In this document: positions 27,613-39,736 of the stretch, piece after piece
Numbering within the stretch: position 1 is the stretch's first letter
Layout of the letters: each line of letters begins with the position of its first letter
Origin: Rhodococcus pyridinivorans
Lineage (GTDB): Bacteria > Actinomycetota > Actinomycetes > Mycobacteriales > Mycobacteriaceae
DNA: 64,000 nt
Direction: 5' to 3'
Assembly (NCBI RefSeq): GCF_900105195.1
Contig: NZ_FNRX01000002.1
Span: forward strand, 1,984,001-2,048,000
Made by a program: the position numbers and the translations under genes
The notes under the pieces: model-generated
What the model saw: the letters and a program-made list of their open reading frames with translations, nothing else
The model's database searches: none
Told to the model about the DNA's origin: nothing

Positions 27613-27897
27613 ATGGCTCAGGCTATGCGATTCACGCGTCTGAACCTGCCGCTGCTCGCGGTCACCCTGGTGATCGCGGCAGCGGTGATCTTGGTGATCG
27701 CCGATCGGTGGCGACGCGGAGCGTTCGTCTTCGGCGGCGCCACCATCCTCGCCGGCCTGTTCCGCTGGGCTCTCGACGAGGACAAGGTCGGTGTCCTCGC
27801 GGTACGCGGCAAGGCGTTCGACGTCGCCTCGATGATGGTCGTCGGCGGAATCGTGGTGGCGCTCGCCGCGTCGATCGACCCGCTGGGAACCGACTAG
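27613..27897 (+). CDS. DUF3017 small membrane protein
   Basis: 94 residues, with three hydrophobic stretches (about 13-30, 38-52, 68-86) and the family's central [18 protein letters not shown]. It lies 26 bp after folD, the conserved position of DUF3017 genes in mycolic-acid bacteria. Function unknown. Its TAG and the TAG of convergent metX share the palindrome CTAG (27894-27897), leaving no spacer. Confidence 0.85.
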
Positions 27898-29021
27898 CCC
27901 TCGGCGAGCTTCATCAGTTCGACGAGGAGCTTCGCGACCTCGTCGGCCTCGGTGAGGAATCCGTCGTGTCCGTCGCGGGAGACGAGCACACGCAGGTCGC
28001 CCGATCCCGGGAGCAGATCGGCGATCTCCTGCTGCAGGCGCAGCGGGTACAGGCGGTCGGAGTCGACGCCGGCGACGATCGTCGGGACCGGGGTGGACGC
28101 GAGTGCGGCCTCGACGCCGCCGCGTCCGCGCCCGACGTCGTGCCGGTTCATCACGTCGGACAACACCACGTAGGTACCGGGATCGAAACGCGCGACGAGC
28201 TTGCGCGCCTGGTGCTCGAGATAGCTCTGCACGGCGTACCGGCCGCCGCGCCACGGGTCCTCGTCGTCCTGGGGTAGATTCCCGAAGCGCGTGTCGAGTT
28301 CGAGTTCGGTCCGGTAGGTGAGGTGCGCGATGGTCCGGGCGATGGCGAGTCCGGCTTCGGGACGCCGCCCCGTGCCGTAGTAGTCGCCGCCCTGCCAGTC
28401 GGGGTCGGCCGTGATGGCAGCCATCTGCGCGGTCTGGGTGCCGATCTGGTCGGCGGTCGCGCGGGCACCGGTGGCGAGGACGAGCGACGCTCGCACCCGC
28501 TCCGGGTACGCGATGATCCACTCGAGGGTGCGCATGCCACCCATCGATCCGCCGGTCACGGCGGCGAGGACGTCGATGCCGAGCCTGTCGAGCAGCGCCA
28601 CCTCGGCCGCCACCTGGTCGCGCACGGTGATCAGCGGGAAGCGGGATCCCCAGGCCTTGCCGTCGGGTGCGGTGCTGCCGGGGCCGGTGGTGCCGCGGCA
28701 CCCGCCGAGAATGTTCGTCGAAACCACGCACCAGCGGTCGGTGTCGATCGGAGCACCGGGGCCGACCATGCCCGACCACCAGCCGGGGGACGGATGGTCC
28801 GGTCCGGCGGGGCCGGTGACGTGCGAGTCGCCGGTGAGGGCGTGTTCGACGAGCACCACGTTGTCGCGGGCGGGGGACAGTTCGCCCCACCTCTGCACGG
28901 CGACGGTGACGTTCGGCAGCGTCTCGCCGCTCTCGAGCGCGAGATCGCCGATGTCGATGGTGTCGAGGCGTCCGTCTGCCGGGGGCAGTTCGACGCGACG
29001 CCGCTCGGTGCCCGCCGTCAA
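27894..29021 (-). CDS. metX: homoserine O-acetyltransferase
   Basis: 375 residues from TTG 29021. Alpha/beta-hydrolase-type Met[16 protein letters not shown], nucleophile Ser159 in TGGSMGGM, catalytic Asp in [11 protein letters not shown] and His in SRDGHDGFL. It transfers acetyl from acetyl-CoA to homoserine, the committed step of methionine synthesis. The TTG start overlaps the stop of a 20-codon frame (TTGA), so translation probably depends on ribosomes arriving from the leader. A SAM-IV riboswitch lies further upstream. The usual neighbour metY/metC is not next to it in this window. Confidence 0.95.
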
Positions 29022-29080
29022 GAGATGACCGCCTCGAGGCTCGCGGTGGGCTGGCAGCGCCGGCTGCGGATGTCGGTCAT
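29018..29080 (-). CDS. 20-residue leader ORF coupled to metX
   Basis: ATG 29080 to TGA 29018, beginning [11 protein letters not shown] and ending AVIS. A GGAAGGA site sits 5 bases before the ATG. Its start overlaps the stop of the preceding 21-residue frame (ATGA), and its stop overlaps the metX TTG (TTGA), with no untranslated gap. The peptide has one Cys and an Arg-rich centre. It is either a translational relay or a leader whose translation is sensed. Confidence 0.6.
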
Positions 29081-29142
29081 CGTGTCCTTCCGGCGGTGAT
29101 GGGAGGTGTGATCGTGGCTTGGGTGCGACAGCACATCATCAT
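29077..29142 (-). CDS. 21-residue leader ORF beginning Met-Met-Met-Cys-Cys
   Basis: Three consecutive ATG codons (29142-29134) followed by two Cys codons; the Shine-Dalgarno GGGAGGA ends 5 bases before the first ATG. This is the first ribosome site after the SAM-IV riboswitch. The run of five sulfur-amino-acid codons at the start of a leader for a methionine gene resembles attenuator or sulfur-sensing leader peptides. The stop overlaps the start of the next leader ORF. Confidence 0.6.
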
Positions 29143-29154
29143 CTCAGTCCTCCC

Positions 29155-29270
29155 GACAACAGGCTTGTCGGTGGGGTTCCACCGACCGTGTCATCACCCG
29201 GAGCACCCCACCCCGGTCGGAGGGTTGCCGGCCAGCAAGCCGGGGCTTGACGCTGGCACTCATGACTTTC
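29155..29270 (-). ncRNA. SAM-IV riboswitch upstream of metX
   Basis: On the minus strand the RNA reads GTCATGAGTGCCAGCG, then AAGCCCCGGCTTGCTGGC, CGGCAACCCTCC, GGGGTGGGGTGC and finally GGGTGATGAC (29190), whose end pairs with the initial GTCAT to close P1. These blocks and their order match the actinobacterial SAM-IV class. After the aptamer comes a strong hairpin (GTCGGTGG/CCACCGAC) and then the GGGAGG ribosome site. CCCTCC inside the aptamer (29224-29219) is an exact complement of that site, suggesting SD masking. Elevated SAM would be expected to reduce metX. Confidence 0.88.
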
Positions 29271-29275
29271 CCGGC

Positions 29276-29281
29276 AGTCTA
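29276..29281 (-). promoter_or_regulatory. possible -10 element of the metX leader
   Basis: TAGACT on the minus strand lies about 10 bp before the first conserved base of the riboswitch (29266), where a -10 box would be expected. No good -35 hexamer is visible 16-19 bp further up. Confidence 0.35.
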
Positions 29282-37431: not shown

Positions 37432-37645
37432 GCACTTTCCCCGCTTAGCTGTATGGGCATTCATGGATCGCACCGTGGATAAGGGACTTCCCCCACTTCA
37501 GTTGACTCGTGGGGTTGAGCGGTTCAGGCCGCGTGTGCGGCCTGATTGGTTGTCTCGAACGGGTACTTGCCGGGCACGTCTGCGGTCGCCTCGATGATCG
37601 CTCGGCGAACACTGTCGCGGCGGAAGCGGGATGGACACCGCGGAA

Positions 37646-38294
37646 TCACGACACCGGGAGCGGCTCCGGCGCCGATTTCCTGCGACCGAGGAAGACTGCA
37701 GACGCCAGGAGGAAGCACACTGCGCCGACGAACGTGCCCACGTTGGCCAAGTTGGGGTCGAGCGAGGTCCCGTGGTGCAGGACGAATGCTCCGACTGCGG
37801 AGATGCCGAACGCGATCGAACCGAGGGTGTTGAGCCAGACGCTCTGCCAGTCCCTCGACTTCGGTGCCCAGTAGGTTCCGGCTCTGAACAGAATGAGTAC
37901 GGCGAGGGCGCTTGAAACGAGGAAGGCGATGGAGCCTTCCGCGTTCGGATTCCAGACCAGGTGCATCTCCCCTTTCACGGTGTGGGCGTGGAGTGCGGAG
38001 CCGGTGCTGATGTTGAACAGGATCGTCCCGAGTAGCTGGACTGCGGCAGCCAGCCACAGCGCGCGGACCGCGGGACGGCCGGCGTCGACGACGGTGGCCG
38101 GTTGACTCAACGTTAGCTGTAGGAACGCGGCTGCGGTGAAGAACCAGGATCCCGCGAAGAAGAAGACGTTCGCGAGCATGACCCCCGAAGACAGCAGACA
38201 GATACGGCGCCGAACCGAGCGCGAAGAGGGCGGAGCCGATCACGAAGCCCCAGGACTGCATTCGCAGTGTCCGGTGAATCAACATGCGCCGCAT
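37646..38294 (-). pseudogene. YrhK-like membrane protein, frameshifted at a C5/G5 run
   Basis: The N-terminal part (from ATG 38294: MLIHRTLRMQSWGFVIGSALFALGS) and the C-terminal part (MLANVFFFAGSWFFTAAAFLQL to LGRRKSAPEP, ending 37646) are in frames offset by one base. They meet at a run of five G/C at 38182-38186. Joined, they give about 215 residues with several helices and the YrhK-type segment VWLNTLGSIAFGISAVGAFVL. A one-base slip in the homopolymer, real or a sequencing error, explains the break. Confidence 0.65.
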
Positions 38295-38452
38295 GATAGT
38301 TAGAATCCCAGATACTTTCAGCACGACACTCGGTCCATTTGTCGACACGACAACCTCGTGTGATTCGACGAATCGCGCCCCTCGGGTCGACACGGAACGG
38401 GTTGCCCGCGCCGTGGCGAGCAGGACGGCTTCCTCGGTGTTACGGTCGGCCC

Positions 38453-39736
38453 ATGCCACCCAAATCGGACGCTGGTACTCGTTTGCTGTTCCGTAACGTT
38501 CGTGTATACGACGGCGTGTCGCCGTCACTCGTCACCGGTGACGTCCTGATCGACGGGGCGACCATCGCGGGGGTGTCCAGCTCCCCTGTCGGCGAAGATC
38601 CGAGCCGGGATACCATCGTCATCGACGGTGGAAATCGTGTCCTGATGCCGGGCATGAGTGACGCCCACGTGCATCTGGTCGGAAATGCCAACTCCTACGT
38701 CGACATGGTGGCGGGAACCGAATCCCACATCGCACTCAACGGTCTCGCCGAAGCCAAGAACATGCTGCACCGCGGATTCACCGCGGTGTGCGACATGGCC
38801 GGCGACACCGGGAGTATCAAGTCGGTGATCGACCGCGGACTCTTCGAGGGACCTCGCATCTATCCGTCGCAGGCCGCGATCTCCTAGACCGGCGGGCACG
38901 GCGACTTCGGATTCGTCTACGAGTGTCCGACAGCGCTCGGCGGAAATCAAAGTCGCGCAGAGGAAATCGGGTTCATGCGGGTGGCTGACGGGCCGGATCG
39001 CGTCCTCGCCGCCGTCCGTGAGCAGCTCAAGAAGGGCGCATCCCAGATCAAGGTGATGGTCGGCGGTGGTGCCGCGTCCATGTACGACCCGCTCTACACC
39101 GTCCAGTTCACCGATCCCGAACTTCGTGCGGCTGTGCACGCCGCCACCGACTACGGAACCTACGTCGCCACGCACGTCTACAACGTCACGGGCATCCGCC
39201 GGGCGGTCGCGGCAGGGGTGAAGTCGATCGAGCATGGCCACCTCGCCGACGAGGAGACCATCGCCCTGCTGGCGGAGAAGGATGTCTGGCTGTCGATGCA
39301 GCCGTTCGCGTTGGGAGATCACCACTACCCGGATCCGAACCGAGCCGACAAGGACAAGGAGATCTGCTCGGGAACGGACAACGTATACGAGTGGGCGCGC
39401 AAGCACGGCGTCAAGACCGCATGGGGCACTGATCTCCTGCTCGAACCTCAGCTTGCGCACCGGCAGAGTGAGATGGCAGCACGCCTCGGCGATCACTACA
39501 GCAACGCCGACGCCCTCCGGATGCTCACCTCGGGCAACGCCGAATTGTTCCGGCTCGCCGGCGAGCGAGATCCGTACCGGCAGGCCCCGTTCGGGGTGAT
39601 CGCCGAGGGCGCGTGGGCGGACGTCCTGCTGGTCGACGGCAATCCACTCGAAGATCTCAGCTTGCTGGCCGACCCCGCGAAACACCTCTCCGTCATCGTC
39701 AAGAACGGCAACGTGGTCAAGAACCTTCTCCAGTAG
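38453..39736 (+). pseudogene. amidohydrolase interrupted by an in-frame TAG
   Basis: The frame is open for 427 codons except for codon 145 (TAG, 38885-38887). Metal-dependent amidohydrolase features flank it: DAHVHL (first metal His pair), then I-S-stop-T-G-G-H-G-D-F, HVYNVTG, SIEHGHLAD and AWGTDLLLEPQ (metal Asp), with the composite-domain ending ADVLLVDGNPLEDL. Homologues (imidazolonepropionase/prolidase-like) have I-S-Q-T at the stop position, so CAG to TAG is the likely change. Otherwise intact, so the loss is recent or an artefact. Confidence 0.85.

Follow-up and report, generated by a model that had tools for sequence, protein, structure and literature searches.

The metX locus in the stretch of Rhodococcus pyridinivorans DNA analysed here (the window; 64,000 nt) appears to be the remains of an operon with the order SAM-IV riboswitch, short cysteine-containing upstream open reading frame (uORF), metY and metX, in which the shell of the lost metY relays ribosomes to metX; we put the probability of this reading at about three in four. 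The shell, a 20-codon frame (ORF2), seems to keep the first codons of metY with their ribosome site, its last codons and its 4-nt overlap with metX. The 21-codon frame before it (ORF1) appears to descend from the cysteine uORF that follows SAM-IV before metY in relatives. A first-pass annotation of the window had recognized the two small frames; that ORF2 is probably a metY shell, that ORF1 probably derives from a cysteine uORF and that ORF2 carries its own ribosome site had escaped it.

Organization of the metX locus

On the minus strand of the window, the order given by the first-pass annotation (SAM-IV, GGGAGGA, ORF1, ATGA, ORF2, TTGA, metX) is exact (Table 1); icd lies on the plus strand, divergent from the metX locus. 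The aptamer, assigned to SAM-IV by its covariance-model score (gathering score, 38) and its full length, is the sole Rfam match in the 64-kb window at the gathering threshold, and the position of TAGACT suggests that the transcript may start at or near it. MetX is a full-length enzyme of its family (NF047917, 600.7 bits; cut-off, 475). ORF1 and ORF2 match no NCBIfam family, nor do the leader peptides of a second metY described below. Two additional in-frame ATGs, at 29139 and 29136, make the start of ORF1 ambiguous. The annotation took ORF1 as the point at which ribosomes load. ORF1 has the site GGGAGGA, but ORF2 has one of its own, GGAAGGA, so loading may not be confined to ORF1.

Table 1. 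Features of the metX locus in the window, in order of transcription
Feature	Position	Strand	Basis
TAGACT, -10-like hexamer just upstream of the aptamer	29276..29281	-	sequence
SAM-IV riboswitch aptamer, RF00634	29156..29267	-	99.6 bits, model 1-116 of 116
GGGAGGA, ORF1 ribosome site, a few nt past the aptamer 3' end	29148..29154	-	sequence
ORF1, 21 codons, Cys codons 4 and 5, putative cysteine uORF descendant	29077..29142	-	sequence and relatives
CCTCCC within ORF1, predicted GGGAGG partner	29101..29106	-	folding, pairing ~0.97 in the window leader; weak against shuffles
GGAAGGA, ORF2's own ribosome site, apparently inherited from metY	29085..29091	-	sequence and relatives
ATGA, ORF1 stop/ORF2 start overlap	29077..29080	-	sequence
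ORF2, 20 codons, putative in-frame metY relic, start MTD, tail LEAVIS*	29018..29080	-	sequence and relatives
TTGA, ORF2 stop/metX start overlap, apparently the ancestral metY-metX junction	29018..29021	-	relatives
metX, homoserine O-acetyltransferase, 375 codons, TTG start	27894..29021	-	NF047917

Gene neighbourhoods and the origin of ORF2

A SAM-IV core motif is present upstream of metX in 69 of the 80 metX loci scanned in named genomes (the best 80 of 154). In 57 of these 69, SAM-IV lies about 1.4-1.7 kb from metX, and metY, whose product is O-acetylhomoserine sulfhydrylase, fills the gap. The gap between SAM-IV and metX is 187-511 nt in the other 12, which belong to Rhodococcus gordoniae, R. 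phenolicus, R. coprophilus, R. zopfii, four further Rhodococcus species, Nocardia niwae, Nocardia sp. CY41, N. asiatica and Mycobacterium fragae. Aptamers were located with the motif GGCAACCCTCC, one mismatch being allowed, and ribosome sites as substrings of AGGAGG. Of the 18 genomes examined in the GTDB genus of the window, 15 have the short gap. The metY of R. yananensis is intact; the assemblies of R. ruber and R. aetherivorans are interrupted within metY or at its end, and the linked metY of these two species is taken as intact because its two ends could be read. The contig ends concerned (L145-L149), in or next to metY, fit the presence of two near-identical copies.

The intact metY of R. 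yananensis starts with GAAGGACACCG-ATGACCGACACC and ends with GAGGCGGTCGCGTC-TTGA onto metX (...GFEAVAS*/TTGA), and that of R. aetherivorans ends with ...ITTGLEAVAS*/TTGA. ORF2 in the window starts with GGAAGGACACG-ATGACCGACATC and ends with GAGGCGGTCATCTC-TTGA; it has the start context of metY, the end of metY, the NTGA onto metX and metY's place in the locus. In the relic of Rhodococcus sp. SMB37, MTITTGLEAVAS*, the start codons of metY are joined to its last codons with nothing between. A tblastn search with the window's ORF2 gave no MetY match; ORF2 is too short to match MetY, so its origin is read through relatives. The Nocardia shells span 32-123 codons, and tblastn matches to MetY above 20 bits (over 22-163 residues) remain in 12 of the 26, in which pieces like VATIGDVRSLVIHPAS survive; eight of these 12 align over 65-163 residues. 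For these searches the metX start of the Nocardia stretches was set by arithmetic, because the 100 nt of metX are too short for a match. Relic starts were assigned manually from a list of candidate starts; the weakest relic is that of M. fragae, with no ribosome site at the chosen start and no MetY match. A metY-metX fusion in Nocardia, considered for its long open frames, was set aside: the metY stop lies in a different frame in those intact loci that were read.

Of 90 intact loci, 51 have an NTGA junction between metY and metX in the metX frame; these include 12 of the 13 Nocardia loci and that of R. yananensis. Coupling of metY and metX is not universal, because in the Mycobacterium sample, all 20 genomes of which have metY, the junction was scored in only six of 20 loci (two of the other 14 were mis-parsed). 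Among genomes with a match, 40 of 148 were sampled in Nocardia and 20 of 143 in Mycobacterium; closeness to N. niwae decided the choice for half of the Nocardia, and closeness to M. fragae for most of the Mycobacterium. The genus of part of the sampled genomes was assigned from their matches. A tandem pair of metX copies (G380:C37:36402-37481 and 37600-38679), probably from Mycobacterium, was also seen. In seven of 52 scored loci (L079, L089, L090, L091, L094, L099 and L104), all from Rhodococcus or Rhodococcoides and with MCC uORFs, the uORF stop lies on the start of an intact metY; thus, a complete relay from SAM-IV through a cysteine uORF and full-length metY to metX exists. Ten GTG-started frames ending on a metY start were left uncounted, being mostly out-of-frame GTGs and not the uORF frame.

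An unlinked metY is present in all 15 relic Rhodococcus genomes (in pieces in G004) and in 25 of 26 relic Nocardia genomes; the search of the remaining one (G214) found no metY at 1e-60. R. ruber has both metY copies, and R. yananensis has the linked copy alone. The second metY of Rhodococcus (L144, L146, L153 and L265-L268) stands behind a probably leaderless GTG-started ORF with a C-terminal Cys motif (VSKTYERASRSPHRRAQLSCIRGCLAR*, ...CMCGCPAG*). Most of these ORFs are preceded by a TATTGT-like box; at L144 (G000:C2:1017500-1022500) the GTG ORF lies about 0.24 kb upstream of the conserved metY start. No SAM-IV motif precedes the second Rhodococcus metY in the stretches read. Ten stretches upstream of relocated Nocardia metY genes (one of them the second copy of a two-copy genome; G163, truncated by the end of its contig, was left out) held no SAM-IV motif and no convincing cysteine uORF, the matches in G222 and G140 being chance-like.

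Conservation of the frame and not of the peptide

Relic loci were chosen by the presence of SAM-IV less than 700 nt from metX, without regard to frame. Removal of 12 duplicate records of the same genomes from 54 left 42 loci, one per genome: 15 from Rhodococcus, 26 from Nocardia (of 40 sampled) and that of M. fragae. All 42 are open from a metY-like start to an NTGA. The start within NTGA is in the metX frame in 40, and in two (L170 and L172) metX is reached via one more GTGA-linked mini-ORF. The extra mini-ORF of these two Nocardia loci, of 26 or 9 codons, lies between relic and metX with GTGA at both ends and makes them a natural double relay, as L176 possibly is too. In L176, an intact relative of the two, metY likewise stops outside the metX frame, so the extra step may predate the loss of metY.

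The first-pass annotation had read a frame kept between riboswitch and metX with 4-nt stop/start overlaps, and the comparison upholds it, the frame being conserved and the peptide not. Pooled pN/pS is 1.12 for the relics versus 0.12 for metX of the same genomes (37 of 42 loci in twelve near-relative groups; the pairs overlap and are non-independent, and the group L031-L036 gives 5.37 on about six synonymous changes). These values suggest that the relic peptides evolve almost neutrally. Because the frame is kept while the peptide is not, ORF2 looks like a pure ribosome conduit. The openness of the relics alone is weak evidence, because base-shuffled relics are open with a mean probability of 0.51; the joint fact is that frame and stop-on-start hold in 42 of 42 loci while the spacer between uORF and relic varies in Nocardia, where most relics stand 33-41 nt from the uORF.

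On a 76-row MetX tree (short search, SH-aLRT only; relic L049 left out and three rows set intact by hand), the relic state requires at least eight changes, five of them forced by well supported branches. Since a lost metY would hardly be regained in place, most of these changes should be separate losses, which implies that the relic state reflects several separate losses of metY.

The overlaps themselves, whose conservation the annotation had proposed to check, fare unequally. The ORF2 start, its ribosome site, the frame and the NTGA junction are shared by every relic locus of the genus (15 of 15, one with a TTG start), but the 4-nt overlap between ORF1 and ORF2 is found in only 10 of the 15; two have an in-frame fusion and three a gap of 39-40 nt. 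Those overlapping loci that were placed on the MetX tree form two separated groups. Two Nocardia loci (L185 and L186) have lost the uORF, and their relic begins right at the ribosome site that belongs to the riboswitch; in a third (L191) the cysteine uORF is fused in frame with the relic; these look like different routes to unbroken translation from riboswitch to metX.

Cysteine uORFs and the origin of ORF1

Relatives point to SAM-IV, tiny cysteine uORF, metY and metX as the ancestral order. The minute ORFs between SAM-IV and metY encode MCCCRR*, MSCCCG*, MCCCTG*, MCSCHE*, MCRCC* or MCMCQ*, mostly behind strong ribosome sites. A ribosome-site-led uORF with at least one Cys codon is present in 92 of 131 distinct metY/metX leaders, and one with at least two in 81 of 131, counts that take in a few chance-like uORFs or the relic itself; the 39 leaders without such a uORF include six Gordonia loci and 18 of the 20 sampled Mycobacterium loci. 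In a second SAM-IV set, which shares some genomes with the first and in which L015 was not scorable, a cysteine uORF follows the aptamer in 11 of 14 loci before metY and in 0 of 19 before other genes.

The uORF alternates Met and Cys codons (MCMCQ*, MCMCP*, MCMCR*) in six Mycobacterium or Mycolicibacterium loci (L105, L107, L108, L110, L113 and L115), as if both sulfur amino acids were sensed. A uORF peptide with one Cys codon, MSRCR*, is identical in L014, L017, L019 and L028, from two genera of the family, and its DNA in L019 differs by one base.

In the clade of the window the Cys run is TGC TGT after three ATGs, the early stop is lost and ORF1 reaches the ORF2 start. Most relics of this clade have two, one or no Cys codons, and L037 has three, spaced apart. 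ORF1 could nevertheless be an active cysteine attenuator, in which stalling at the Cys codons exposes downstream sites or blocks Rho and metX answers to cysteine as well as SAM; we regard this as a genuine but doubtful possibility. It would account for the runs of Cys codons (MCCC) in metY-bearing relatives and for the strong preference for TGT, which makes up 189 of 228 Cys codons in uORFs versus 59 of 292 in the metX stretches examined (related loci). The spacer between uORF and metY, moreover, is C-rich and G-poor (41% C and 22% G in 52 intact loci), and cysteine attenuators have been published for mycobacteria (Canestrari 2020, as cited in passages of PMC9094748 and PMC13236596). Against it, the run has shrunk to two Cys codons near the start of ORF1 in the window, and Nocardia relics have fewer Cys codons than intact loci (mean 1.95 in 22 leaders versus 2.92 in 13; p 0.014, uncorrected for kinship). 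Because ORF1 ends on ORF2, furthermore, no untranslated C-rich gap is left. Mycobacterial polycysteine uORF attenuators reportedly have a leaderless start, by the title of the 2020 study as cited, whereas ORF1 stands behind an aptamer and has GGGAGGA. With two Cys codons in the window and none in one relative, cysteine control via ORF1 is probably weakened.

Initiation at metX and action of the riboswitch

The first-pass annotation also held the metX start to be weak. The TTG bears this out, but a possible weak GAGG stands 10 nt before it, inside ORF2. Because this GAGG lies within the relic, the relic tail could be kept as a ribosome site in Rhodococcus, where the junction has a 4-nt ribosome-site match in 14 of 15 relics; metX might then initiate alone, with the mini-ORFs as passengers. 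Selection of this kind would preserve the tail but neither the start nor the frame of ORF2; all 15 Rhodococcus relics nevertheless retain both, together with the ribosome site of that start. The GAGG is missing in one of the 15 Rhodococcus relics and in the Nocardia relics, which score just 0-3 at the metX junction and keep the frame too, and TTG is a weak start for independent initiation. Initiation at metX alone is an unlikely explanation of the locus.

Action of SAM-IV on GGGAGG through CCCTCC of the aptamer, the switch suggested by the annotation, is highly improbable. The two hexamers are complementary, as the annotation stated, but in the Rfam structure CCCTCC belongs to helix P3, of which it forms one strand, and it is no special feature of the window locus. 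Pairing of the two was rejected: its mean predicted probability, as folded without pseudoknots or ligand, is 0.000 for the 15 Rhodococcus leaders, 0.095 for the 35 from Nocardia and 0.023 for the 43 others. Moreover, pairing of CCCTCC without SAM would switch the gene off at low SAM, the wrong direction for a biosynthetic gene. Among 144 scored SAM-IV leaders (duplicate records included), GGAGG lies 13-16 nt from the aptamer CAAGC in 66 and 31-100 nt away in 41, and was not found in 37. At 13-16 nt, by our reading, it would stand a few nucleotides past the 3' strand of PK-2, a pseudoknot described for SAM-IV in passages of PMC6890682. The simplest reading is that the SAM-bound fold would close the ribosome site sterically.

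A local partner of GGGAGG, CCUCCC, is predicted in 14 of 15 Rhodococcus leaders, at a site that differs among loci. Mean downstream pairing of GGGAGG is 0.85 in the full Rhodococcus leader, and 0.97 is paired locally; shuffled downstream sequence pairs with it at 0.76 (sd 0.15). The hairpin of GGGAGG with the CCUCCC inside ORF1, although strongly predicted in the window leader, stays a lead because it is only slightly above shuffles. A second SAM-IV of the genome, found in a search with strict filters (C2:4944843-4944960, L141), precedes another gene, with no cysteine uORF behind it. That gene, which has a DYAASAPA motif and a Cys-containing N-terminus, is presumably PLP-enzyme-like, going by this motif; similar genes follow SAM-IV at other loci.

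Small frames and NTGA overlaps are common in GC-rich DNA, and besides the openness of shuffled relics, frame +2 is open in 18 of 42 relics (frame +1 is open in 0 of 42 because the start overlap itself is a stop there), but chance is disfavoured and the least credible explanation, given 42 of 42 relics in frame on NTGA across several losses while Nocardia spacers vary freely.

Proposed history of the locus

In the favoured reading of a hollowed operon, the ancestral metX lacked a strong ribosome site and would have been translated by ribosomes finishing metY, via the NTGA overlap. A second metY would have arisen elsewhere in the genome first, in the order that we infer, and the linked metY would then have lost its interior. 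Because metX would need delivered ribosomes, only deletions that spared the start of metY, its reading frame and the stop codon overlapping metX would have survived. ORF2 would be the remaining shell, a conduit whose peptide is irrelevant, and ORF1, formerly a short cysteine-sensing leader, would have lost its early stop in this clade and come to end on the ORF2 start. A ribosome loaded beside the riboswitch would pass through ORF1, ORF2 and metX by translation and reinitiation. SAM on the aptamer would be expected to hinder loading at GGGAGGA and lower metX output, its direction and strength being our supposition. The parts of the locus, their ancestry, the conservation of frame and the near-neutral evolution of the peptides are supported by sequence comparison.

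Relation to known systems

Translation of PPE2 in Mycobacterium tuberculosis proceeds by termination-reinitiation from uPPE2, which follows a B12 riboswitch (Kipkorir 2024, PMC11260477). There too a riboswitch is followed by a small ORF whose stop overlaps the next start (AUGA), and the window likewise has a uORF with a ribosome site after the aptamer and a 4-nt stop/start overlap onto the next ORF. As for a downstream gene lacking its own Shine-Dalgarno sequence, the window has the weak GAGG and Nocardia relics the low junction scores given above. The systems differ in ligand (B12, not SAM) and in the number of mini-ORFs (one, not two), and dependence of PPE2 on uPPE2 translation is known by experiment, whereas the window relay is proposed from comparing genomes. 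The passages on uPPE2 do not describe the mini-ORF as the shell of a lost enzyme, which ORF2 appears to be. In the M. tuberculosis Mbox-rv1805A arrangement, a riboswitch controls a small ORF ahead of an operon (PMC12810186); the passages seen describe rv1805A as highly conserved, whereas relics of the ORF2 type are unconserved in sequence.

A 2005 study predicted cysteine leader peptides for cys operons (Seliverstov, PMC1262725), and such peptides were found in mycobacteria (Shell 2015, PMC4633059). As the passages seen describe them, polycysteine attenuators share with ORF1 a short leader ORF with a Cys run before genes of sulfur metabolism; unlike them, the window has a ribosome site and SAM-IV upstream, a reduced run and an ORF1 extended to overlap the next frame. 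Compared with RF00634, the window has the full SAM-IV aptamer, and first behind it stands a uORF, not an enzyme gene. In a literature search, mostly without subscription papers, neither a cysteine uORF following SAM-IV nor a gene shell retained in frame for coupling turned up. Nor did the combination of a riboswitch-uORF relay, a polycysteine attenuator and a hollowed cistron, of which the first two have each been described on their own.

We lean towards regarding these loci as recurring frame-only genes. On loss of the first enzyme gene of a coupled pair, its cistron would be hollowed to a shell whose product is no longer under selection but which stays open, in frame and stop-on-start, carrying ribosomes from a riboswitch/cysteine-leader double sensor to the remaining gene. 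Such shells would have arisen several times among Rhodococcus and Nocardia, with probably a single origin in Mycobacterium. Such loci would be a natural, replicated test of the strength of translational coupling, with the frame seemingly selected and the peptide drifting. They also join two candidate sensors, SAM-IV and the cysteine uORF, in one methionine-gene leader across several genera of Mycobacteriales, and they advise caution, as conservation of a small ORF's frame does not by itself mean that its peptide is useful.
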